DNA of 64,000 bases from a virus. Position numbers and translations under genes: made by a program. The notes below the pieces were generated by a model. It was not told the DNA's origin and did no database searches. It saw only the letters and a program-made list of their open reading frames with translations. The stretch's first letter is position 1; each line of letters opens with the position of its first letter. Where the stretch lies: the IMG/VR virus record IMGVR_UViG_3300031753_000002, positions 1-64,000 of that record. One strand, 5' to 3'. This document shows positions 2,215-59,775 of this stretch, one piece after another.

Positions 2215-2637
2215 CTACCATCCTTGAGCCGCGCGCAATAGAATCTCATACGGGGAAGCGGCTGGGTCGTTGACGGCCAGAAGGGCAAGCATGTCTTCAG
2301 TATCCGTGATTAGCTCGTAATGTATGCCGGGAATCAAGTACAGCTTGGCCTTGTAGCTTTCACCGACTTGTATCAGAACCCATCCGGTTTTGCAACCGGC
2401 GTTGGCGCGACGTGTCTGCCATTCGGCTTGCTTCTCGCGCTTCGCCGGGCGGATCGGCGTGGTAGGCCGCATCGGGCGCTTGCAGGACTTTAGCTCAATC
2501 CAGATTTGCGCGCTCGCGACGAAACCCTCCACATCGGGGGTCCCCTCGCCGGCTGTATTTTCCAGCCGATTCAATTCGAGGTCATGATCCTTTTTCACTC
2601 TGGCGAGGCGCCCCCAAAGAGATTTCTCTTTAGCCAT
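2215..2637 (-). CDS. VRR-NUC-like PD-(D/E)XK endonuclease
   Basis: 140 aa. The catalytic pattern GTPDVEGF...IWIELK fits the PD-(D/E)XK core, followed by a Q-rich helix (KREKQAEWQTRRANAG) and a strand (GWVLIQVG), as in VRR-NUC and phage resolvase-like nucleases. Probable role: structure-specific DNA cleavage in replication or recombination. Overlaps the upstream gene by 8 nt. Confidence 0.8.
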   Translation of the reverse strand: MAKEKSLWGRLARVKKDHDLELNRLENTAGEGTPDVEGFVASAQIWIELKSCKRPMRPTTPIRPAKREKQAEWQTRRANAGCKTGWVLIQVGESYKAKLYLIPGIHYELITDTEDMLALLAVNDPAASPYEILLRAAQGW

Positions 2638-3133
2638 CGAAATTCTCCGGGAGTGGGGTCCGCGGCGGCTCGCGCCGGATCACGCGCACTCGCGACGGTT
2701 CTTTTGGAGTGGTGGTCGGGGCGAGCATGCCGGACGGCACCGGGTAGGCTGCAACGAGCGCGTATAACGCGCCGCGATAATAGTCGTCCCATTGCTCGCC
2801 GGGAAGCGCGTCATCCGGCACGACCTCGCGGAGCACATTGCGCACTGCCATGCCGACGCCGAAATGGAAGCGAAGGTCTGTGCTCCCGATACGGACGCCT
2901 CGCGCAGCTTGATCCTGCCATTCGGCGCGAGCGGTGTTGGGTACCTTCACGCGAAGATAGGCGATACACCGCTCTTGCTGATCCTGAGTGAGCCGGGCAA
3001 AGTTCTTGCGCTGCCATTCGTCATCGGCGTCTTGCTGATGTTCGGGCTCATACCAGTTCGGGCAGAATGCGCGCATCGCGCGCTTTTCTAATTGGCACTC
3101 GCACGCCTCGCCGTCGCTTCGCTTGCACGTCAT
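2630..3133 (-). CDS. DUF6794-like conserved phage protein
   Basis: 167 aa from the ATG overlapping the upstream stop (ATGA). The C-terminal half has the pattern LRFHFGVGMAVRN...WDDYYRGALYALV, which resembles DUF6794. The N-terminal half has a Cys cluster (C3, C11, C13, C24) that could bind zinc. Function unknown. Confidence 0.6.
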   Translation of the reverse strand: MTCKRSDGEACECQLEKRAMRAFCPNWYEPEHQQDADDEWQRKNFARLTQDQQERCIAYLRVKVPNTARAEWQDQAARGVRIGSTDLRFHFGVGMAVRNVLREVVPDDALPGEQWDDYYRGALYALVAAYPVPSGMLAPTTTPKEPSRVRVIRREPPRTPLPENFDG

Positions 3134-3564
3134 TTCGGTTCTCCACGCGCACGGGCCGCTTCGATTTCCAACTGCAACGCGGCGAGGATGCGCCACGCCG
3201 CCTTCGCCATGTGTCGGCAACCGTCATCATCCATCTTGCCCCGTTCGATGATGTGGCGCCCTGCTTCGTCGATATTGTTGCCGCCCTTGCCGCGCGCCCA
3301 ATGTAGCGGTTCGCCGGTATTGTGCTTTTCATTGCCGACATGCGAGACCTCTGCAACGGCAATCAACGCGTCGGGGAAATAGTCGAGCAAGCCGGTGACG
3401 ATAGGGATGCGTTTCCGGGCGACGGAATCGGTCGGCATTGTCGCGCCGCCGCCCCACTGTTGCGTGTCCTGTTCGTCCGTCGTCTTGACGCCGACTTGAT
3501 ACGGTTCACACAACGATACGGAAGGCGCCGGGCAAGTCGTGACGGGGCGGCTGGGATTTGACAT
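3130..3564 (-). CDS. dATP/dGTP pyrophosphohydrolase-like protein
   Basis: 144 aa from an internal ATG; the longer frame upstream overlaps two other genes. The region RKRIPIVTGLLDYFPDAL to HMAKAAWRILAALQLEIE, with PLHWARGKGGNN and DDDG in between, matches phage dATP/dGTP diphosphohydrolase (MazG-like, DUF5664-type) proteins. These are thought to trim the dNTP pool. It sits with other pool genes (dut, nrdJ, HD hydrolase). No PurZ gene is visible to link it to a modified-base genome. Confidence 0.72.
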   Translation of the reverse strand: MSNPSRPVTTCPAPSVSLCEPYQVGVKTTDEQDTQQWGGGATMPTDSVARKRIPIVTGLLDYFPDALIAVAEVSHVGNEKHNTGEPLHWARGKGGNNIDEAGRHIIERGKMDDDGCRHMAKAAWRILAALQLEIEAARARGEPK

Positions 3565-3712
3565 GTGTGATCCTATGATAGTGCTGGCAAATTCCAGGGG
3601 TCGGCGGTTCGGGAAGGTGTAGGCAATGGCAGCGCGAGCCGAGCGCGCACAACCATTTGGTCGGGCGCGCGGCCTCAATTACTGCGTCGAAGATTTCCTC
3701 AGGGGCGCTCAT
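3506..3712 (-). CDS. Small Cys/His-rich protein
   Basis: 68 aa. It begins at a TAATG junction with the upstream gene, which supports translation. A CALGSRCHCLHL...GICQHYH cluster could form a zinc site. The C-terminus overlaps the pyrophosphohydrolase start by 59 nt, so it may be longer than the functional product. No family recognised. Confidence 0.45.
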   Translation of the reverse strand: MSAPEEIFDAVIEAARPTKWLCALGSRCHCLHLPEPPTPGICQHYHRITHVKSQPPRHDLPGAFRIVV

Positions 3713-3927
3713 TACAGCCCCGTCTTGCGGATCATCGCCAACAAGCCGTCCGCGAATCCCAGCGCAAAGCTCGCAATTTCATCCGGCACGTCGGAAGCTT
3801 GCATCGCTGCGTCGGCATCCGCTTGGATTTTCTCGGCGCGGACATACACATCGCGAAAGCTGGCATTTTGCGTGAATGCGATGCGGCCTTCATTGTACCT
3901 CGCGTCGATAATTCGGAATTCTGACAT
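3712..3927 (-). CDS. Hypothetical acidic/helical phage protein
   Basis: 71 aa, with a GGGAGG ribosome site just before the ATG. Mostly helical (DVYVRAEKIQADADAAMQ). No recognised family. Its start lies inside the end of the small membrane gene at 3890-4039, so the pair is probably coupled. Confidence 0.6.
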   Translation of the reverse strand: MSEFRIIDARYNEGRIAFTQNASFRDVYVRAEKIQADADAAMQASDVPDEIASFALGFADGLLAMIRKTGL

Positions 3928-4039
3928 GGGGACCTCCCGCTAGGAAGAAAACAAGGAACATCACGGCGGAGGCGATAGCGCTACGGGTCACAATCCAGAA
4001 CAAGAAACTCGGGGCCAGTGCGGCTAACAGCCTATTCAT
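3890..4039 (-). CDS. Small membrane protein, 49 aa
   Basis: Short ORF with a clear ribosome site (TAGGAG, 8 nt before ATG). Residues 3-35 are strongly hydrophobic and could form a long span or a hairpin. The tail is basic. Overlaps the following gene out of frame. Function unknown. Confidence 0.5.
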   Translation of the reverse strand: MNRLLAALAPSFLFWIVTRSAIASAVMFLVFFLAGGPHVRIPNYRREVQ

Positions 4040-4045
4040 GACGTT

Positions 4046-4074
4046 CTCCTACGGGGGTCCGTAATAAAAGTCAA
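4046..4074 (-). promoter_or_regulatory. Possible leftward promoter
   Basis: On the minus strand TTGACT and TAGGAG are separated by 17 nt, directly after the terminator hairpin and before the 49-aa gene. TTGACTTTTA also occurs in the promoter-like site at 25035-25064. The -10 hexamer coincides with the ribosome site, so this is weak. Confidence 0.3.
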
Positions 4075-4102
4075 CCCCGGCGGGGGCGAAATCCCGCCGG
4101 GG
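4075..4102 (-). terminator. Intrinsic terminator after the DUF932 gene
   Basis: Perfect 10-bp GC stem (CCCCGGCGGG/CCCGCCGGGG) with an 8-nt loop. On the minus strand it is followed by TTGACTTTTATT. It lies 27 nt past the stop at 4130. A second, smaller inverted repeat (AATCGGG/CCCGATT, 4110-4131) overlaps that stop codon. Confidence 0.7.
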
Positions 4103-4129
4103 TCTCCATAATCGGGTCACCACTCCCGA

Positions 4130-5227
4130 TTACGCCGAAAGGCTAGGACGGAAGGGCTGCTTCAAGATCGCCCCTACGTCGGCAGTGGCGGCGGTCTTCG
4201 CGGCCACGGCTTTGAGCAAGGCACCATCGGTCAAGTCGTCCAGGAAGCTGACCGCGGTCGCCTTCATAACAGAGCCGGAACCAAACTGAGCGGACAAGAA
4301 GCGCTTTTCGTCTGCCCCGTCCGGGCCTTTGCTGTGGTCAACGTAGCGGGTCACTGCATTGAGCGCGGCCCAAGCGGTGCCCGGTTCGGTCCCTTCCCGA
4401 ACGGTTGCAGCGTATGCCTTGCCAAGGTCTTCGAATTGGTTCATCTTTCGACTGGAAATGTCAGTGCGCGGAGCATCGAACGGGATATCCAAGCACGTCT
4501 TGAACAGCCGAGAGATTTGATCCTTGGTCAAATGGGTCTGCACCATCGCGTCGCCCATGTTCTTGTACGCGGTGAAGCCCTTCACGATGGTCGCCAACTC
4601 ACGCCCGACCGCATACTTGTCAAACTTGGTGTTGTGCCGGGTCCGAACCTCGCAGCCCTTCTCGGCGAGCGCGCTGTCGAGCGTGTTGCTGCAGACAACG
4701 CGGGTCGCAACGGCCTTGTTGATCGTGGCGCCGGAACCGTCGAAGGTCGTGGTTGCGAGCAAGTGCGCCTTGTGCTTGTCGCCGCCGACAATCAGTTCAT
4801 CCCGATAGCGCAACGTGATGAAGATGATTTCACCCTGCTTAAGGCAGCCGGCCGTGTCGATTTCGAAGCGGTCGTCAACGGAGGCGTATTGGTCGGCCCA
4901 TTCAAGAAGCTGGACCGGCTGATGCGGCTGGTAGATTTTGGAGACCGACCGCGGAGCGAGGATGTGGCCATTGTCGCCGCGGACGATGAAACGGGTTCCA
5001 TCAACCGCAACCATGCCGAGATTGAGCGCGGCCAATTCCGGGTGACTAAAGTCGGCGAAGGCAGAGACTTTGATCGCGTGCCAGTCGAGACCAGCATCGT
5101 GCGCCCAAGAGGCGATGCTCTGGCCGGACTTCTTCTCTTGCCCGAAATGATGCCACCAATTCTTGCGAGACCCGAGGGCTGCGAAGCTGTGGCGACCGTC
5201 TGCGGTCGTACCGATGTTGTGTGCCAT
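4130..5227 (-). CDS. DUF932 phage/plasmid-like protein
   Basis: 365 aa from the ATG preceded by AAAGGAC; an upstream in-frame ATG at 5242 has a poorer site. The sequence has the features of the DUF932/TIGR03299 family: N-terminal PWHGLG-like region here reading RKNWWHHFGQE, internal VCSNTL and RHNTKF. The family is common near phage replication and recombination genes but has no settled function. Has its own terminator, so it may be separately controlled. Confidence 0.82.
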   Translation of the reverse strand: MAHNIGTTADGRHSFAALGSRKNWWHHFGQEKKSGQSIASWAHDAGLDWHAIKVSAFADFSHPELAALNLGMVAVDGTRFIVRGDNGHILAPRSVSKIYQPHQPVQLLEWADQYASVDDRFEIDTAGCLKQGEIIFITLRYRDELIVGGDKHKAHLLATTTFDGSGATINKAVATRVVCSNTLDSALAEKGCEVRTRHNTKFDKYAVGRELATIVKGFTAYKNMGDAMVQTHLTKDQISRLFKTCLDIPFDAPRTDISSRKMNQFEDLGKAYAATVREGTEPGTAWAALNAVTRYVDHSKGPDGADEKRFLSAQFGSGSVMKATAVSFLDDLTDGALLKAVAAKTAATADVGAILKQPFRPSLSA

Positions 5228-5314: not shown

Positions 5315-5605
5315 TTAAGGAAGGATTGGCTCATAATTGAGCCATGGCCCCGGTCGCCTGGGCTTGAAGCCCGGCGGCAGCTTCGGGAGGCTGGCGGCAG
5401 TGAGGACTCCGCCTGTAGCCGCTGTCTCAGGACCGGGCGCGACGAAGCTCGCCCACGGGCTTCCTACGGGCATCTGGCCGGTCAAAAAAGCCTCCATAAT
5501 CATCCTATCGAGGTCGCGCGTCATGTCGGCCGTGATCCGGGCAGCCGTCGCCTCGATCCGGCGCGGCTCGGGGTCTTCACCGGTCGGAACCTCGAATTGA
5601 ATCAC
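5315..5605 (-). CDS. Hypothetical protein, GTG start
   Basis: 96 aa. A GTG overlaps the HNH stop by 4 nt (GTGA), the same coupling used across this operon; the frame is open further upstream but overlaps the HNH gene. Helical centre (MTRDLDRMIMEAFLTGQMPVG) and a Pro-rich C-terminus. Not recognised. Confidence 0.5.
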   Translation of the reverse strand: MIQFEVPTGEDPEPRRIEATAARITADMTRDLDRMIMEAFLTGQMPVGSPWASFVAPGPETAATGGVLTAASLPKLPPGFKPRRPGPWLNYEPILP

Positions 5606-6150
5606 CAATCCCAGCCGGTCATACCGCACAAGTTCACCCGGTTCATGCTCGGCGTGGCCCACCGCAAATTGCCCCGCCGGCAGTTCATCGCGTCGCTGTC
5701 CCGATGGTCTACCATCTTGTGCAACAGGGATGGCGGTTCGATTCCTGTCCGCTGCATCACCGCCACGTGCAACCAAATCGTTCGCTGCACCCGGCAAGCT
5801 CCGGTACGGTCGCTCCCGACACGCCTGAGATAGAAGCGCCGCCCACCGCGGGACCATTTGACTGACCATCGCCATCGGATTGCCCACTCGTAATCGATTT
5901 CATCAACAACCGCCCAAACCGAGGCGCGGTCATCCCCATAGATGCGCCGCTCGGGCGCTGTCAGTTCCCAGGTGCGCGGGTCGAAGGGATCGTCGGCAGT
6001 TTCATATGGGCCGGGCCTGTCGCCTGAGAAAGTCCTGGGCCTGGGCAGCGCGAGCGTGGGGTGAGTCGTCAACGATGTGCCAAAGCCGGGTGTAGAAGCT
6101 GCGACCGTCGTGAACGACGAAGACCTCGCTAAAAGGGCATTGCTTGCCAT
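5602..6150 (-). CDS. HNH homing-type endonuclease
   Basis: Up to 182 aa. The C-terminal half carries the AP2/HNH pattern: a WRWSVKWSRGG...FYLRR strand region, then HKMVDHRDSDAMNCRRGNL and RWATPSMNRVN. This is typical of free-standing phage homing endonucleases. The N-terminal 60 residues overlap the 62-aa gene at 6002-6190 in another frame and look non-native, so the true start is probably internal (no good ATG or ribosome site there) or the gene is rearranged. Confidence 0.72.
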   Translation of the reverse strand: MASNALLARSSSFTTVAASTPGFGTSLTTHPTLALPRPRTFSGDRPGPYETADDPFDPRTWELTAPERRIYGDDRASVWAVVDEIDYEWAIRWRWSVKWSRGGRRFYLRRVGSDRTGACRVQRTIWLHVAVMQRTGIEPPSLLHKMVDHRDSDAMNCRRGNLRWATPSMNRVNLCGMTGWDW

Positions 6151-6190
6151 CAATCACGCGTTCCCGTTGCTCGATCCGTACCTCGGGCAT
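6002..6190 (-). CDS. Hypothetical 62-aa protein
   Basis: Good ribosome site (AAAGG, 8 nt before ATG) and tight spacing with the upstream gene. Contains ...SEVFVVHDGRSFYTRLWHI, a compact alpha/beta look. Its 3' part is overprinted by the HNH frame. Not recognised. Confidence 0.5.
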   Translation of the reverse strand: MPEVRIEQRERVIDGKQCPFSEVFVVHDGRSFYTRLWHIVDDSPHARAAQAQDFLRRQARPI

Positions 6191-8210: not shown

Positions 8211-8413
8211 CGGAGTGAAGCATCTCCATTGGTCGATTGAGAGCGGACCTTTTGCGCCGCCGCTAGGGCAGCCCAAGCTTCTAGCCGGCATCTCCCCTTT
8301 ACGCTCACATTCGCGTATATCCAATTTTGAGGATTCCACCATCGCCGTCTCCATCTGTAGATGGCCATTGCCGCTGCTTCTACCTCCAAAAACATCATCT
8401 CGTCTCGTGTCAC
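8207..8413 (-). CDS. Hypothetical protein, 68 aa, GTG start
   Basis: GTGA overlap with the upstream stop. Trp-rich motif IYRWRRRWWNPQNW and an Ala-rich helix. No family recognised. Confidence 0.5.
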   Translation of the reverse strand: MTRDEMMFLEVEAAAMAIYRWRRRWWNPQNWIYANVSVKGRCRLEAWAALAAAQKVRSQSTNGDASLR

Positions 8414-8709
8414 GGCACAAACGCCTTTCGCTGTCGTTTGTCATAGACCAGATTTTTCGGATCATGTCCAGTCATTCGTGCAAGTCGGTCCTTGGCGCGT
8501 CCGGCGCGCCCCATAGCCTCGCGTTCGCGGCCATGCGCTGTCAAGTGGCCTTGGGCATCAACCGAGCCCTGTTGCTGCAATATCTCGATCGCAAGTTGAT
8601 GTGCAGCAACCGGCGCATGACCCTTGGCGCGAAGCTGCCCCTCAAGGCTATCCACAAGTCCGTGCGTGAAGCGCCCATGGTCATCGCGGGGCTGATCGGG
8701 ATTTGCCAT
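8410..8709 (-). CDS. Hypothetical protein with RDDHGRFT N-terminal motif
   Basis: 99 aa with GAGG before the ATG. The N-terminal PRDDHGRFT resembles the RDxHGRWT motif at the starts of the head-region proteins at 45743 and 46624. The rest is helical and charged. Possibly a virion-targeted protein, but it lies in the replication arm; function unknown. Confidence 0.55.
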   Translation of the reverse strand: MANPDQPRDDHGRFTHGLVDSLEGQLRAKGHAPVAAHQLAIEILQQQGSVDAQGHLTAHGREREAMGRAGRAKDRLARMTGHDPKNLVYDKRQRKAFVP

Positions 8710-8887
8710 CTAACCTCACTCCACCTTGACGCGGAAGAGATAACGCATCCTCAAGAGAAAGTCCAGCCCGGAGCCGTTCATAAACCGTCGAATACGGCAC
8801 GCCGCGTGCCCGTGTTATGCTTTGCAACGAGTCTGGATTTGGTTTGCGACCTGCAATCGGTCCGCGCTTCTTGTTCCATTCCATCAT
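8681..8887 (-). CDS. Small protein with NUMOD-like/HTH repeat
   Basis: 68 aa. ITRARGVPYSTVYERLRAGL plus SLEDALSLP is the same repeat type as the two N-terminal repeats of the neighbouring Endo VII protein, which suggests DNA binding. A GGAG ribosome site lies just past the presumed original SNF2 stop at 8897. Overlaps the next gene by 29 nt. Confidence 0.5.
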   Translation of the reverse strand: MMEWNKKRGPIAGRKPNPDSLQSITRARGVPYSTVYERLRAGLSLEDALSLPRQGGVRLDGKSRSAPR

Positions 8888-8896
8888 ACATCTCCA

Positions 8897-8965
8897 TCAT
8901 ACATCCGTTGCTAGGAGAAGATCGCGCAGACCGCGGCCGGACACCGAATCAGCGAGCGCAGCCTT
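8897..8965 (-). repeat. Original SNF2 gene tail, now fused to Endo VII (copy A)
   Basis: Encodes LADSVSGRGLRDLLLATDV plus stop with GC-rich codons, in frame with the Endo VII ORF. The same residues end the SNF2 gene at 9402-9470, but 18 of the 19 codons differ. Interpreted as the ancestral helicase 3' end displaced by the insertion. Confidence 0.85.
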
Positions 8966-9409
8966 GCCGTGCTTTAGCAGATAGGCTATGGCCTTTGCAA
9001 GCCTCTCGGGATCATCTCCAAATTGGCCTAAACCTAGGTTGCACTCCGGGCATAGCCAACCCCGGAATTTTCCGGTTGCGTGGTCATGATCCGCGTGAAG
9101 CCGCGCCACCGCCTGCCCGCAACATTCACATTGACCATTTTCAGAAAGCGCTTGATCTAAAGTCAATCCGTATCGATTGCGTCGCTTATAGATGGTCGTT
9201 CGGTGTACTCCCGCCGCATCACATCGTCTCGAAATCTCGCCTTGCACCCGCAAGGGAATTGCGATGGCTTCGGCTACGGAAAGCCCTCGGTCAGTAATTC
9301 GTCGCCAAATCGTTTTTGGGTTGAACCCGGCGGCAATCGCCGCAGCGTGATACCCGCGCGTTCGCGGATCACCACAAAATCGGCCGTTTGCATCGCGTTT
9401 CTTAAACAT
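8897..9409 (-). CDS. Endonuclease VII-like homing nuclease carrying a captured helicase tail
   Basis: 170 aa from the ATG that overlaps the SNF2 stop by 8 nt; a GTG at 9445 is an alternative. Two NUMOD-like repeats (AAGFNPKTIWRRITDRGLS and AAGVHRTTIYKRRNRYGLT) probably bind DNA. The Endo VII zinc/catalytic region follows: CECCG, HADHDHATGKFRGWLC and CNLGLG, with D-H-D-H residues for metal and cleavage. After the natural end (about LLKHG) the protein continues into the old SNF2 C-terminus. Probable role: cutting SNF2 alleles that lack the insert. Confidence 0.85.
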   Translation of the reverse strand: MFKKRDANGRFCGDPRTRGYHAAAIAAGFNPKTIWRRITDRGLSVAEAIAIPLRVQGEISRRCDAAGVHRTTIYKRRNRYGLTLDQALSENGQCECCGQAVARLHADHDHATGKFRGWLCPECNLGLGQFGDDPERLAKAIAYLLKHGKAALADSVSGRGLRDLLLATDV

Positions 9410-9494
9410 CGGTCGCCAACAATAAGTCTCGTAATCCTCTTCCACTTACACTGTCCGCAAGCGTTGCTTTAGAGTCAACTATGGCCCAATTTCT
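9402..9494 (-). repeat. Recoded SNF2 tail (copy B)
   Basis: The last 31 codons of the SNF2 ORF switch to AT-type codons (AGA, ATA, TTA, AGT) from nt 9494 onward while keeping the protein sequence of copy A. The change in codon style marks the probable edge of the inserted cassette. Confidence 0.8.
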
Positions 9495-10847
9495 ATCGTC
9501 CACCGTGCCGGGCGTCGTGATTCGTACGATGCTCACTGTCTTGCCGCCCTTCACAGTCGCCCGTTCCTCCGATTGCCTGATTCGAATCGCATCCGGAATT
9601 GATGAAAAGTATATAACCGCATCTGCGGCCGAAAAGTCAAGCCCCTCGCCCCCGGCGCCCGGCTGGCCGACCTGGACTAGCTTACGCGGATTGTTCTGGA
9701 ATGCGAGTCGAGTCGGCTCGCGCTGGTCCTGCGGCACACCGCCATGGTACTCCAAGATGCTGTTCTTGTACCCATGGGATTGCAGGAACAAGACCACGCG
9801 GCGAATATCCTCCCGATAGCGGCACCACACAAGCGACTTGCCGGGAAGCGTCCCGTCTACTTGCTCTTTCAGCGCCCAATAAATCGGTGCGTCCGGGTCC
9901 ACCGTCACGATGCACCCATCCTTCATCATGTAGCCGTTGATGATTTGCTGTAGCTTCTGGACGCGGGCGCCCCCGTCGAGCGCTTCGACCTCGGTGCCCT
10001 CAATCTCGACAAGATGGTGGGAGACCATGGTCAGGTAGGCGCGTCGCTGAACCTCGCTCATGATGACCGGCCGCTCAGTCCGAATCAGCGCCGGCATATC
10101 GTGAAGCTCGCTGCGTAGGACGACAGAAGACCACGGAGCGAGCCGACTGCGCAATTCATCCATGTTTTTGTACTCGGCGAGCTTCCAATAATCCCGCCCG
10201 GAGTTGCGCTTCTGTTTCTCATATGTGGCATAGCGCGCCTGGAATTCGGTAAATGTTCGGAAGCCAAGCGCTTCCTTTTCGAGTAATTCGTATTGTGAAA
10301 AGGCCCTCAGAGGGCTGTTCAGCAATGGCGTTCCACTCTCGATCGTGCAGAATGTGGCGTGACGGGCGAGGCTACGGGCACGGAACGTACGTTTCGCCCC
10401 TGGCCGGCCAAAGTGGTGCGCCTCCGAAACAATCATCATGAACTTGCGATTGCAGGCTTTCAGAAACTCTCGAACGGCCTTTCTATTGTCATGATGTTCC
10501 AAAGCCTCTATATTAATCGCGAACCATTTGAGACCGCGGTGCGCCAGCAATGCACGCCACTTGTCAATCTGTGCGTTGTCGGCGCGGCGCCCTGTTTGCC
10601 ATGCGAAGCCTACGTGGCGCCCGTTCTCAGGCCACGCCCATTTAGGAACCTCATTTTGAATCCAATTGATATGCACGCCGTTCGGGGCGATGATGATGAC
10701 GCCTTCGATCGCGCCCTTACCATGTTGCCAACACGCCTTATCGATGCACGCCTTGCTTTTTCCTGAGCGCATCGGCCATATCAAAGCGCGAGATTTCTTC
10801 TCGCGATGGCGCTTGAATTCACGGGCTTGGTGAGGCCAGTCTTTCAT
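9402..10847 (-). CDS. SNF2-like DEAD/DEAH helicase/translocase
   Basis: 481 aa. Motif I PMRSGKS (Walker A), motif III SGTPLLNS, a C-terminal RecA domain with SLVWCRYREDIRRV, and motif VI RIRQSEERA are present. Motif II reads VSEAHHF where DEAH/DESH is usual, so the first Asp is Ser; activity may be altered. Likely a dsDNA translocase in replication or recombination. The C-terminus is supplied by a recoded segment associated with the Endo VII cassette. Starts inside the previous gene (29-nt overlap). Confidence 0.85.
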   Translation of the reverse strand: MKDWPHQAREFKRHREKKSRALIWPMRSGKSKACIDKACWQHGKGAIEGVIIIAPNGVHINWIQNEVPKWAWPENGRHVGFAWQTGRRADNAQIDKWRALLAHRGLKWFAINIEALEHHDNRKAVREFLKACNRKFMMIVSEAHHFGRPGAKRTFRARSLARHATFCTIESGTPLLNSPLRAFSQYELLEKEALGFRTFTEFQARYATYEKQKRNSGRDYWKLAEYKNMDELRSRLAPWSSVVLRSELHDMPALIRTERPVIMSEVQRRAYLTMVSHHLVEIEGTEVEALDGGARVQKLQQIINGYMMKDGCIVTVDPDAPIYWALKEQVDGTLPGKSLVWCRYREDIRRVVLFLQSHGYKNSILEYHGGVPQDQREPTRLAFQNNPRKLVQVGQPGAGGEGLDFSAADAVIYFSSIPDAIRIRQSEERATVKGGKTVSIVRITTPGTVDDRNWAIVDSKATLADSVSGRGLRDLLLATDV

Positions 10848-17600: not shown

Positions 17601-17722
17601 CCCTCTTGCCCGTAGGTCCAGCAGGCACAAAGAGCTTGAGTTTGATCATCGGTAGCGTAGCGTGTCGCCCCGAGCTTAATCAAGTCCACAACGCCCCGAG
17701 TCTCAAAATCAAAAAAGATCAT
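14615..17722 (-). CDS. Family A DNA polymerase with 3'-5' exonuclease and an intein
   Basis: 1035 aa precursor; 760 aa after removal of residues 502-776. N-terminal DnaQ-like exonuclease: FDFETRG (Exo I) and AHNSYFEFSIW (Exo II). Polymerase motif A ELYAADFNAIEARK; motif B KRALGKRAILGLGY interrupted by the intein, then SMGWEKF; motif C SIHDE. It copies phage DNA and needs protein splicing to rebuild the O-helix. The first ~65 codons use more AT-type codons than the rest. The start overlaps an Endo VII gene (ATGA). Confidence 0.93.
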   Translation of the reverse strand: MIFFDFETRGVVDLIKLGATRYATDDQTQALCACWTYGQEGRIRLWHRGHPWIDKTPEDDPDFLELIERVADGEIFEAHNSYFEFSIWNGPLLREFPEFRVALRLEQMRCSAAKGSCMSLPRALGDAAKAIGLDNQKLVDGRRLINKLSKPMPRRRGQPQIARFCEEEIEHRRNWDYCKQDVRTEREYSNWCPEMTERELEYWRMDFRMNQRGILLDETAAREALELARLETDRLNSELFEITGGRVDRGSRRAVFKKWANETIQVINPGAVGLLDTKADTLSFELYGVPTKAGDEAKDAARPATDAKWEQFGEAGEPLHRALEICLEVNRTSVSKYKQMVESMCPDGRLHDIMLYNGADRTGRWSGKGVQPHNFVRGYSKDMCKAWDDILTLDREYITLIWGEPLPALAKACRGALVASPGKELYAADFNAIEARKLAWLSGCASQLLLFRTGGDPYIDMACGIYKMECDATDKEQIKWFKNNHPDKRALGKRAILGLGYCHAADTLILTKRGWVRIDKADSDMLWDGIEWVSHKGLVCNGEKSVTNLGDSFSTMDHPIWCEDRFHHAGKVVANETLRSRALAAGKEALPLLGISSVLATASNGSWCGANAERRNIKSIWRIGAPVAQRVATSVRNMRQRIEDMRHTKPQCQKVSTENDTLIDYPRQSDDATTHEILNSKITAPEGSRSAWIGTKIEPLFSDIFGRCQVGMIHTLKWIEGIMIAAMSRAIFASRLGVSNVEIRVGRKEKVYDLIDSGPRNRYMILTCDGPMIVHNSMGWEKFQATVWAEEGIWLEDEFCQMVVKVYRKDKCPEVPRLWKDYNAAAIDAVMLGGERYAGGDETGIGAVSYFVSGPFLHCRLPSGRLLAYLYPEVHTRCTWRFNAINERSKPCKVNFQAKIGVSTASARYHAEKLADKQRKRLTQDPPENFLSPHLSFMGRNIITKQWQRCGTHGGTLVENADQASSRDLLAEAMFRVDMEPDFDLLLSIHDEVIAEAPIGTATVKEFEAMMAADVGWAPGMPIAAEGWIGHRLRK
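15395..16219 (-). mobile_element. Intein in polymerase motif B
   Basis: 275-residue intein: Cys1 begins block A (CHAADTLILTKRGW), block B contains STMDHPIW, block F is VYDLIDSGPRNRYMI, block G ends MIVHN, and the +1 extein residue is Ser. It sits between the Tyr and the Ser-Met-Gly of motif B. The frame shows no in-frame endonuclease; the ~145-residue middle has no recognisable fold and lies over the HNH gene, which is read in the -1 frame. Confidence 0.9.
15465..16106 (-). CDS. HNH endonuclease nested out of frame inside the intein
   Basis: 213 aa, read in the -1 frame relative to the polymerase. It has its own ATG with AAAGGA 5 nt upstream. Domain: CKCG...CNIC zinc knuckles, RLSAAIGRCHNTRNPKFKDYG, then GWDDSHLEMDRRDND and YEPGNIRFTT, a well-known phage HNH type. 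It spans intein residues about 38-252, including block B, so that DNA codes for two proteins. Probably the homing enzyme of the intein, made as a separate protein. Confidence 0.88.
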   Translation of the reverse strand: MQRRKIRDEFGRFILDDGSSHMVRGSVPPCRESGRQRDLALPRIGSRQGSLTVVGYIVGPRNGVKRIVVRCKCGAPEHQIDLANWRAGRSTRCNICSKHAAADRRHAAYKAAMPESEHRERHLNRLSAAIGRCHNTRNPKFKDYGARGIEVCLDWYKDRAAFLRHIRTLPGWDDSHLEMDRRDNDCGYEPGNIRFTTRSEQCRNTRRQKGKSI

Positions 17723-18135
17723 TTGGATTTCTCCAAATAATCAGCCATTCGCCGGAGTAGCTGTGGATCGTCTTTGACGCTGCCAAGAGTTAAGTTGCAC
17801 GCTCTACAAATCCAACCACGAAACCGCTTTGATGTATGGCAATGATCTAGCGCTAGAGATATGCGCTTGTCATAAAGCTCACACTTATCCGGCATCGGAC
17901 GATTTGGAATTTCACAACCCAAGCGACGCGCGATAATCTCGGGTCGCTTTCGATAAGCCTGTTGTTTCTCTCTATACCCGGAGTCATTGTTATAGTTGGT
18001 TTTCATCCAGGTTCGGTGCTTTTCTTTTACATCTGGACGCTGATTATAAATTATTCTTTTTGCTCGATACCGCTGAGCATAGAACTGGCGTTTTCGTTCT
18101 ATCATCTGATCGTATGAGAGGCCAAGAGATCGCAT
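17719..18135 (-). CDS. Endonuclease VII-like protein upstream of the polymerase
   Basis: 138 aa; TGATG start junction and ATGA overlap with the polymerase start. Endo VII core LDHCHTSKRFRGWICRACN with GSVKDDPQLLRRMADYL. The first zinc pair reads CELYD instead of CxxC, so one ligand is missing and the enzyme may be weakened. The N-terminal half is Lys/Arg/Tyr-rich. More AT-rich codons than the neighbouring genes, consistent with mobility. Confidence 0.78.
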   Translation of the reverse strand: MRSLGLSYDQMIERKRQFYAQRYRAKRIIYNQRPDVKEKHRTWMKTNYNNDSGYREKQQAYRKRPEIIARRLGCEIPNRPMPDKCELYDKRISLALDHCHTSKRFRGWICRACNLTLGSVKDDPQLLRRMADYLEKSK

Positions 18136-18620
18136 CAATACAGCGATGGATAGACGTAGCAGAACACATCGCGTCCAGTGGAGGTCATCCAAACCCAGCC
18201 GTGCCCCGTTATATTCGGATGCGCCGGGTCCGGCGGAACAATGCGGTCCTTCGGAATGAGGATGCGCGTGCCGGCCGGGATGCGAGTCTTGCAATCGCGT
18301 TCGCCGTCATTCTGACAATATGGCTGTTCGGCCTCTGCCGCGGCGGCCTTTTCCGGGGTGTCGCCCTCAGTGATGATCGCCCAAAGCTCGCCGCCCTGCG
18401 TATCCAGTTCGTCGGCCTCATAGGCATCGGCCGGACCGCAGCACGAATCGTGATTCCAATCGCCGGTCCATGGGCGCGTATTTGGCCGCTTCTGATTTGA
18501 GAGGAAATCTCTTGTCGCGTCGGCGATCCTATCCCAGGCGCCGGGATAGAGCGGACGCGCGGGTGCGTAAACGACTCCGATCACGAGACAGACCACAGTG
18601 CATATCGACAACACTTTCAT
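18135..18620 (-). CDS. Exported Cys-rich conserved protein
   Basis: 161 aa with a signal peptide (MKVLSICTVVCLVIGVVYA). The mature part has DSCCGPADAYEADEL, a second Cys pair (PYCQNDGERDC) and TGHGWVWM...VFCYV, a pattern seen in exported alphaproteobacterial and phage proteins of unknown role. Ends in a TGATG junction with the Endo VII gene. Confidence 0.65.
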   Translation of the reverse strand: MKVLSICTVVCLVIGVVYAPARPLYPGAWDRIADATRDFLSNQKRPNTRPWTGDWNHDSCCGPADAYEADELDTQGGELWAIITEGDTPEKAAAAEAEQPYCQNDGERDCKTRIPAGTRILIPKDRIVPPDPAHPNITGHGWVWMTSTGRDVFCYVYPSLY

Positions 18621-38057: not shown

Positions 38058-38275
38058 CGACAAAGATCAAGATCGAGAATGATGGTACCAGCAACGGCGA
38101 CGTTGTGGTGCGTGCTTTCAATTCGTGCGAGGGTACGATCGCATTCGAGTTGCTCCCGGGCGAAGCTCGGGAGTTGTGGATCACAGACAATACCGGACTG
38201 TTCGTGACGGAGACGTGGCCGACCAAGAAGCCGAATCCCGATAGTCCGGCGCCAGCCGAGCCCGGCGAGGATTGA
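38054..38275 (+). CDS. Hypothetical beta-rich protein, 73 aa
   Basis: Short beta sandwich-like sequence (FELLPGEARELWITDNTGLF) with a Pro-rich acidic tail. Perhaps decoration. Confidence 0.55.
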   Translation: MTTKIKIENDGTSNGDVVVRAFNSCEGTIAFELLPGEARELWITDNTGLFVTETWPTKKPNPDSPAPAEPGED

Positions 38276-38283
38276 TCCGACCG

Positions 38284-38299
38284 CTAAAAGCCCGGTTGC
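38284..38299 (+). repeat. Interspersed repeat R2
   Basis: CTAAAAGCCCGGTTGC, 14 nt before the Endo VII start at 38313; pairs with R3 as a direct repeat flanking that gene. Confidence 0.75.
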
Positions 38300-38312
38300 A
38301 TATAGAGCCGCG

Positions 38313-38642
38313 ATGGTGAATCAGCGTAAAGTTCGTGCTCGCTCTGTTCGATATCGGGCTGCACATCCGCAACGCGTGCGCGATTCGGATAGATCACGCC
38401 GCGCTCGAAAAATGGGCTATGAACCGCCACCTTCTGAAAAGGATTGTTCGGCACGACCACGTGATGGTCGATGCGATTGTTGTTTACGGCCGACAATACG
38501 ATTTCATTTAGATCACGACCATGTAACCGGCGCGTTTCGCGGCTGGGTTTGTGGTCCGTGCAATCAATCAGCTTTTCCTGATGATCCGGTGCGATTGCGA
38601 GAACGCGCCGATTTTCTGGATCGTAAATTACCTTGGCAGTGA
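38313..38642 (+). CDS. Endonuclease VII-like protein
   Basis: 109 aa. Basic N-terminus, then CDCCLRPTIRFHLDHDHVTG, AFRGWVCGPCNQ and DDPVRLRERADFL, giving both zinc Cys pairs and the D-H-D-H catalytic stretch. Direct repeats R2 and R3 flank it and its codons are more AT-rich, so it looks like an inserted homing gene. Confidence 0.85.
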   Translation: MVNQRKVRARSVRYRAAHPQRVRDSDRSRRARKMGYEPPPSEKDCSARPRDGRCDCCLRPTIRFHLDHDHVTGAFRGWVCGPCNQSAFPDDPVRLRERADFLDRKLPWQ

Positions 38643-51236: not shown

Positions 51237-51611
51237 ATGCGCAAGTACACAATTATGCTACTCGCGGCTGCGACATTCTCATGGATACCAAGCAGTGTTC
51301 AGGCGGCTGGGTGCGACGGCAGCCCGACGTTCACAGTGCAGCGGGAAGCGATAGAGGCGGCGAATCCAGGCTATCAGCACATCGAGTTGACCGCCGAACA
51401 GCGTGCCGTTTTTCTCAAAGCGATGGCCGAATATGCTGGGCACAATCTCAATTTCGCTCACGTGTGGGTCGGTGTGAACGTCAATCCGAGCGAGGTTGCC
51501 ATCGCATTCGTTGAGGAAAATGATTGCGTCAATGGGGCGGCGCTCATGCCATTGGACATATTCGAACAGATGCTCGGGTACGACTCCGGACCGGAGAAAC
51601 GGAGTCTCTAA
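51237..51611 (+). CDS. Exported protein with signal peptide, 124 aa
   Basis: GGAGG site before the ATG. Signal peptide (MLLAAATFSWIPSSVQAA), mature domain with two Cys residues and a helix-rich AEQRAVFLKAMAEYAG. Secreted into the host periplasm; role unknown, perhaps exclusion. Confidence 0.65.
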   Translation: MRKYTIMLLAAATFSWIPSSVQAAGCDGSPTFTVQREAIEAANPGYQHIELTAEQRAVFLKAMAEYAGHNLNFAHVWVGVNVNPSEVAIAFVEENDCVNGAALMPLDIFEQMLGYDSGPEKRSL

Positions 51612-51614
51612 AGC

Positions 51615-51782
51615 CATGGTAGGCAGCGCTTGATGTAACCATGTTGCATCATCGGCCCACCCTTGACCAGTGTTGCAAGTAGCGTGGCACCATCCAAGAA
51701 ATTGTCCTGTATCGTGACAGTGGTCCATATGTAGGGCGGCTGGGTCCGCATAAAAGCCCGGTTGCGTTACAGCTTGCTGCAT
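51615..51782 (-). pseudogene. Endonuclease VII remnant, antisense to the capsid operon
   Basis: Minus-strand frame reads DPAALHMDHCHDTGQFLGWC, HATCNTGQGWADDATWLHQA, clearly the Endo VII core, but there is no normal N-terminal Cys pair or natural end. Repeat R4 lies within its start. This fills most of the 318-nt gap before the capsid gene. Confidence 0.6.
51750..51765 (+). repeat. Interspersed repeat R4
   Basis: ATAAAAGCCCGGTTGC, 165 nt upstream of the capsid gene and inside the Endo VII remnant. Confidence 0.7.
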
Positions 51783-58998: not shown

Positions 58999-59367
58999 AT
59001 GGCAGGATTCAACTACCTGGGTACACGGGCGACAGCGGACAAGTTGATCAAACGGTTCGGTATGAAGGCAGCCCTTCGCCGAGCCGGCGACACCCCAACG
59101 GATCGTGAGTGCTGGGTATGCATCTATGACTACATGCCGAGCGACAAAGCGACGGCGCTAGCGAACCCGACCGACCGCAAAGTCATCATGTCGGTAGGAC
59201 TAGGCGCGGTGCTCAATGAGCCGCCCGACAACGAGAAGGACCAGCTTGTGACGTTTATCCAGCCGGCAGGCACGGTTCAAAACGAGGTTCTGCCGTTCAC
59301 ATGCCCTCCGAAGCCGTTCGCCCCAGCGGGGGTTAATGTGCTTTGGGAGTTCACCGTTCGGCGTTAA
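58999..59367 (+). CDS. Head closure/completion protein, 122 aa
   Basis: Start at the second Met (an ATG at 58987 is possible). TRATADKLIKRFGMKAALRR and a beta-barrel-like C-terminus fit small head-closure proteins in this genome position. Overlaps the convergent Endo VII gene by 17 nt. Confidence 0.6.
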   Translation: MAGFNYLGTRATADKLIKRFGMKAALRRAGDTPTDRECWVCIYDYMPSDKATALANPTDRKVIMSVGLGAVLNEPPDNEKDQLVTFIQPAGTVQNEVLPFTCPPKPFAPAGVNVLWEFTVRR

Positions 59368-59737
59368 GATAGGAGACCGCGCGCATCAGAGATTCGGCGT
59401 CATCGCCAAGCAGCCCCAAACCGGCATTGCAGTTGCGACAAAGCCATCCTCGAAACCGTCCGGTAACATGGTCATGATCTATGCAAAGCACCGCCCTCTT
59501 GTGGCAAAGCTCGCAACAGCCATCTTCGGGCGGGGAGCGAAGCGTGCTTTCATCGAGCAATGCATGCCCTTCATTAAGGGCACGCCTCTGAATTGCGGCC
59601 ACTCGTATCTTGACTCGGTTTATGGTCTGGTACGTATGATTTTTGGCGCGACCACGGGGCGTCTTCCCGTAGTCGCTTTGGCTCTTTCGAATGCGGTCGG
59701 GATGGCGCGCTTTGTATCGAGTATGCCGTTCGGACAT
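59351..59737 (-). CDS. Endonuclease VII-like gene inserted antisense in the tail operon
   Basis: 128 aa, opposite to all neighbours. CCELCHKRAVLCIDHDHVTG, RFRGWLCRNCNAGLG and GDDAESLMRAVSYL give the full Endo VII set. Basic N-terminus. Its orientation and isolation fit a free-standing homing gene. Confidence 0.87.
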   Translation of the reverse strand: MSERHTRYKARHPDRIRKSQSDYGKTPRGRAKNHTYQTINRVKIRVAAIQRRALNEGHALLDESTLRSPPEDGCCELCHKRAVLCIDHDHVTGRFRGWLCRNCNAGLGLLGDDAESLMRAVSYLNAER

Positions 59738-59775
59738 GCTGCATTCTACATGGTCGGCTTGGGGCGGTCAAGCCG

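Follow-up and report, generated by a model that had tools for sequence, protein, structure and literature searches.

A duplicated, synonymously recoded SNF2 helicase gene end beside an Endonuclease VII-type gene points to an end-replacing homing cassette in phages

The DNA studied was a 64,000-nt window (positions 1 to 64,000) of the 86.8 kb virus record IMGVR_UViG_3300031753_000002, in which the gene for an SNF2 helicase (9402-10847) is followed downstream by an open reading frame (ORF) for an Endonuclease VII-type nuclease (8897-9445), both on the minus strand, as are all other features of this locus described below. The two predicted proteins ended with the same 19 residues, LADSVSGRGLRDLLLATDV, and the likeness extended three residues further upstream (KATLADS.. 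vs KAALADS.., 21 of 22 residues). This peptide repeat was far above chance (tblastn of the sequence against itself, E 1.8e-9) and was the single SNF2-like tail repeat of its kind in the 86.8 kb record. At the DNA level, 18 of the 19 codons differed between the two copies, a single GAT being common to both, and 27 of the 57 bases differed, where the genetic code sets a ceiling of 30. Seven of the nine leucine, arginine and serine codons had switched codon box, and in no register were more than 5 consecutive nt identical. An earlier note on this DNA, made from the sequence alone, had reported the shared 19-residue end, the codon count with its one unchanged GAT, and the frequent use of other codon boxes; recounting confirmed the duplicated and recoded tail in each of these respects, with all coordinates correct.

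The codon style of the two copies was also different. SNF2 codon usage was ordinary up to codon 451 and foreign from codon 452, at nt 9494 (z -4.4 to -5.5). The gene was thus divided into a native body (codons 1-451, 9495-10847), containing the Pfam domains SNF2-rel_dom and Helicase_C and matching a PHROG DNA helicase family (1e-69), and a synonymously recoded 3' end of low third-position GC content (GC3) that comprised codons 452-481 and the stop (9402-9494). The body of the nuclease ORF was atypical as well (z -4.9) and, with the new SNF2 end, made up a single foreign block some 530 bp long, while the tail copy borne by the nuclease was ordinary for the genome (z -0.4), just as the earlier note had judged in describing a nuclease copy in phage style and an AT-type SNF2 copy from 9494. 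Residues 452-481 of SNF2 were modeled as a low-confidence tail behind the helicase core (predicted local distance difference test, pLDDT, below 50), and in that model the foreign block appears to enter just where the folded core stops.

Comparison with SNF2 genes that lack the nuclease indicated which of the two copies was the older. At synonymous sites the nuclease-borne copy was the nearer one to 11 of 13 nuclease-free relatives and the SNF2-borne copy to two, the signal from most of these relatives taken singly being weak because they are distant. In the nearest nuclease-free tail (L091, 17 of 19 residues in common), 45 of 57 bases matched the nuclease-borne copy and 33 of 57 the SNF2-borne copy. 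The nuclease-borne copy also retained the G of a DGK motif found in most relatives, where the SNF2 copy has S. Both of the nuclease-bearing SNF2 loci had a relic of the SNF2 end, whereas the 13 close relatives that lack the nuclease had none, nor did SNF2 loci further removed. The result for 11 relatives was the one the earlier note had predicted for insert-free SNF2 ends, and neither of the outcomes it had named as telling against its reading, insert-free relatives matching the AT-type copy or repeats common without a nuclease, was found.

The second nuclease-bearing locus was found by searching with the nuclease. It lies in IMGVR_UViG_3300037147_000032 (L007), in which SNF2 is 56% and the nuclease 52% identical to the proteins of the window. 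The L007 SNF2 gene (2540-4087) ends IIDGKISLADTVSGTGLRDLLMKTDI, the nuclease gene (4084-4587) ends with TAG, and directly behind it is a relic of the SNF2 end (4588-4671) that reads GIVDGKVTLADTVSGTGLRDLLRSTDI up to its stop. This relic is in the nuclease frame behind the single TAG (4585-4671); the window relic is in frame with no intervening stop. The gene behind the L007 relic starts in overlap with the relic stop and is 35-46% identical to gene X, which in six relatives without the nuclease begins in overlap with the stop of SNF2 itself. Therefore the relic is the original SNF2 end in its original place, and therefore the inserted block consists of the new end and the nuclease gene. Codon z values in L007 were 0 for the SNF2 body, -3.1 for the new end, -5.4 for the nuclease, and -2.1 for the relic, with GC3 of 0.67, 0.48, 0.44, and 0.60, respectively. 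The relics start no more than about four codons apart, at about codon 456 in L007 and 459/460 in the window, as one common cut site would give, though these are two cases only.

Codon style, the relatives, and the position of the relic in L007 are three independent lines, and because of them the identification of the nuclease-borne copy (8897-8968, fused in frame to the nuclease) as the old native SNF2 end is supported. The relatives, the L007 layout, and the occurrence of the relic only with the nuclease likewise support the proposal of the earlier note that the nuclease inserted near the SNF2 3' end and brought a replacement end, the old end becoming fused to the nuclease.

The nuclease ORF matched Endonuclease VII (HNH, PF02945; Pfam 8e-19) and opens with a GTG at 9445, but the likely start is the ATG at 9409, in overlap with the SNF2 stop in the manner of gene X in the empty relatives; residues 1-13 were unstructured in the structure model. 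Two helix-turn-helix (HTH)-like DNA-binding modules precede the catalytic domain. The first spans residues about 32-62 (9260-9352; AlphaFold pLDDT 88-90 over residues 31-60, PHROG 1065 match at 34-102), and the second residues about 72-100 (9146-9232), which are conserved with the L007 nuclease, where HTH_23 and HTH_8 matched the same place. The EndoVII/HNH domain itself (residues 101-160, 8966-9145) was recognized from PHROG EndoVII families, from the homologue alignment, and from Hpy99I (PDB 3fc3), a sequence-specific nuclease that was the nearest solved relative by sequence (1.5e-9). A fold search of the nuclease model gave a weak match to Hpy99I (E 0.037), and the sequence search was firmer. 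The CxxC..DHxH..CxxCN zinc/HNH core of the Endonuclease VII family was present; in an alignment with 12 homologues, the catalytic residues D119, H120, and N136 were invariant, as were H122, R128, and the cysteines C106, C132, and C135, and C109 was nearly so. The homologues, the PHROG models, and Hpy99I all end at residue 160-161, where the SNF2 relic starts, and the relic part was modeled with low confidence. In the closest SNF2 relative (L011), the sequence behind SNF2 (4540-5169) encodes three HTH modules of the same type without a nuclease domain, and the DNA-binding modules of the nuclease may be common with this displaced neighbor gene.

This arrangement very probably represents a homing cassette, made up of a replacement SNF2 3' end and an EndoVII-type nuclease gene, that would cut the native SNF2 3' end and swap in a cut-resistant substitute. 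In a mixed infection, the nuclease would bind a native SNF2 gene and cut it around codons 452-460 (about NWA/IVDGK), and the break would be repaired from the cassette-bearing genome, with the SNF2 body providing homology on one flank and the relic and downstream genes on the other. In the product, the SNF2 body would carry the recoded end from the cassette and would be followed first by the nuclease gene and then by the old end of the recipient, left as a relic. The recoded end would leave the protein unchanged and destroy the site, shielding the carrier from its own nuclease, and, by keeping the two copies dissimilar, would prevent a recombination between them that removes the nuclease. Recoding starts at codon 452 and the relics at about 456 (L007) and 459/460 (window), and no copy with an intact site would survive: the site would be lost from the SNF2 copy by recoding and from the relic through its missing upstream half. 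Under this proposal the relic is intact and natively coded because it is renewed at each homing, and the functional end is highly diverged yet identical in protein because it is always selected as SNF2. The sequences themselves show the duplication, the foreign block, the native relic, and the use of one site in two phages; cutting, immunity, transfer, and selection for recoding are inferred from them.

The alternative that survives best is ordinary import, in which an AT-biased donor phage simply supplied its own SNF2 end to the cassette, co-converted with the homing nuclease and with no selection for recoding. This is a real possibility, if not the one we would expect, and it is favored by the low GC3 of both the nuclease and the new end and by the L007 pair, which resembles plain orthologue divergence. 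Natural divergence was gauged from the SNF2 genes of the window, L007, and 12 relatives without the nuclease. Between genomes, 19 composition-matched shared residues differed by a mean of 13.6 bases, and the 27 differences of the window were reached in none of 100,000 draws of such residues and in none of 1,230 windows of 19 conserved codons within the SNF2 family. Orthologous tails with 16-18 of 19 residues in common had 8-14 synonymous base differences, vs 27 here, and import would have to combine zero amino acid changes with saturated synonymous change. For a donor of biased base composition, P did not exceed about 0.001 at any GC content tried between 0.65 and 0.20, and it was 0.004-0.009 when conditioned on the SNF2 copy instead; these values apply to a pattern that was picked after being seen. 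The evidence that the divergence of the tail exceeds the natural range of the SNF2 family is thus strong but not final. Removal of the cut site and a block to recombination between the copies, as the recoding would provide, fit both this excess and the longest common run of 5 nt. Whether selection drove the end to near-maximal synonymous difference, making it cut-proof and recombination-proof with the protein unchanged, as in a natural 'recoded-rescue' phage homing drive, seems to us about evenly balanced.

Two flanking copies of one gene end might also result from an insertion with a long target-site duplication, followed by drift of the upstream copy. However, drift at 27 synonymous sites would also break the downstream copy, which is under no selection and yet is intact and in native codons, and the upstream copy has the foreign style of the nuclease, making this explanation improbable. 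Somewhat less probable still is that the tail functions as a C-terminal peptide, a partner-binding motif common to both proteins, with selection on each maintaining the likeness. The identity of 19 of 19 residues and the conservation of the motif across SNF2 relatives would agree with such a role, but the L007 nuclease terminates at its TAG ahead of the relic, the ends of other EndoVII proteins lie at about residue 160, and the tail has low confidence in the structure model. Selection on the peptide would also leave unexplained the foreign codons of the SNF2 end and the presence of gene X beside the relic. EndoVII/HNH nucleases can travel in introns, but a group I intron or intein is very improbable here, since SNF2 is complete without the insert, neither an Rfam match nor splicing domains were found, and the nuclease has its own start and stop. 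An assembly or chimera artefact, conceivable for a metagenomic contig, can practically be dismissed, as the copies share no more than 5 consecutive bases, so that assembly could not confuse them, and the same layout is present on the independent L007 contig.

Several observations weigh against replacement of the SNF2 end by a homing nuclease. The native site is known solely from relatives of at most 64% SNF2 identity, a same-species empty allele not having been found, and the arrangement is known from two examples only. About 25 other EndoVII loci (21 in IMG/VR, four in the same record, and others in relatives and in the Gordonia phages OneUp and SteveFrench) had no convincing duplicated neighbor end, so nucleases of this type do not generally have the arrangement. 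The L007 relic is itself somewhat codon-atypical (z -2.1). The two L007 ends differ in an ordinary way, with 17 of 19 residues alike and 10 synonymous differences; near-total recoding was seen once, and therefore belongs to the window cassette and not to the arrangement. Shared cassette ancestry was also sought and not seen, the replacement ends of L007 and the window being not especially alike.

Further examples were sought by sequence. The 37-aa SNF2-tail peptide gave no tblastn match in the phage collection even at E 10, the query being too short there, and a degenerate DNA pattern for the AGR/TTR-coded tail matched 14 loci in IMG/VR, none encoding SNF2. A genome-contig scan gave no SNF2 relatives, and a DNA search among named phages gave no match. 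The tail of L048, GGALADRVGLSGAG, was alike by eye, but was rejected, as its upstream neighbor is a capsid-like gene and not SNF2.

Downstream of the window cassette, a perfect 13-bp tandem repeat, GATGTATGATGGA, lies at the relic stop (8880-8905); with one unit removed, the relic stop and the start of the next ORF would overlap as ATGA. That ORF (8681-8887) is short, occupies the gene X position, and is weakly similar to gene X of L013 (blastp 43% over 35 aa, E 1e-4). It is followed by the next conserved syntenic gene downstream of SNF2 (8410-8709), which is 45-55% identical to its counterparts in L017, L020, L011, and others. Elsewhere in the window were four more EndoVII homologues and one HNH_3 protein (17719-18294, 38208-38642, about 51597-51734, 59351-59767, and 5602-6153); one of these genes abuts the start of a DNA polymerase gene, and none carries a duplicated neighbor end. 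Helicase gene 71 of Gordonia phage Malisha (OP434458), as annotated at L008 1347-3206, contains an EndoVII ORF in another frame (2249-2788), which separates the DEAD-type N-terminal portion of the gene from the Helicase_C portion. This is probably a nuclease-bearing insert, possibly an intron, that was read through by annotation. The ends of the 86.8 kb record (1-74 and 86712-86784) share about 72 bp of identical sequence, a terminal overlap which probably means that the contig is complete.

Among known systems, the closest in organization is the WHO element of Torulaspora and Lachancea yeasts, a unit of a nuclease gene and an upstream resistant FBA1 3' end (PMC7282813). As in WHO, the nuclease gene is behind the target gene, the full-length target carries a divergent replacement 3' end (resistant in WHO and presumably so here), and an old 3' end fragment that starts near the cut site lies directly behind the nuclease gene (window 8968-8897; L007 4588-4671). 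Repeated insertion at one site, with fragments starting near the same position, is also common to both, here in two cases only. However, the WHO nuclease is LAGLIDADG/intein-derived with a zinc finger, whereas here it is HNH/EndoVII with HTH modules, and the target is yeast FBA1 in WHO and phage SNF2 here. Resistant and sensitive ends are 85% identical in WHO, vs 53% here with the protein unchanged, and the replaced part is some 400 bp vs about 93 bp. The phage cassette therefore works like WHO but falls outside the WHO family, because its nuclease is EndoVII/HNH.

Fungal mitochondrial mobile ORFs with C-terminal duplications, known from Allomyces atp6 and from Glomus atp6, atp9, cox2, and nad3 (PMC3630166), resemble the phage locus in layout, with a foreign gene end and an endonuclease ORF followed by the native end downstream, and in that the native copy matches insert-free relatives and the inserted copy does not. 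They differ in being mitochondrial and in encoding LAGLIDADG/GIY-YIG nucleases. The two Glomus atp6 copies are only 63.5% identical, and their ends, unlike those of the window, differ in protein too (91% identity). Free-standing homing endonucleases of T4 (seg, mob; PMC2988022) are, like this one, phage nuclease genes beside their target (presumed here) and absent from the relatives' locus (13 empty here), and they spread via co-conversion of flanking DNA. They lie between genes, whereas here the SNF2 end is duplicated, and a word search of that review gave no duplicated gene end. Endonuclease VII and other beta-beta-alpha-Me nucleases (PF02945; Hpy99I, PDB 3fc3) share the nuclease domain with its zinc and catalytic residues, but not the added N-terminal HTH modules or the appended SNF2 tail.

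No phage case of an end-replacing nuclease was found in open-licence PMC papers, which agrees with the earlier note as far as phages are concerned, but the precedents are wider than the fungal mitochondria it named, since they include yeast WHO. That this architecture recurs in double-stranded DNA phages, with a nuclease of unrelated structure, speaks for convergent evolution of one solution to a general problem, namely how a nuclease that is in neither an intron nor an intein can reside in a gene that is needed. In its near-total extent the synonymous recoding resembles that of the rescue copies designed for synthetic gene drives, and it would predict which bases the nuclease reads. The locus is also a warning for annotation, as the last residues of such a nuclease are an old piece of another gene. 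So far, descriptions of end-replacing homing have come chiefly from the nuclei of yeasts and the mitochondria of fungi; new here would be its occurrence in phages, its HNH/EndoVII nuclease, and its hyper-divergent synonymous recoding.
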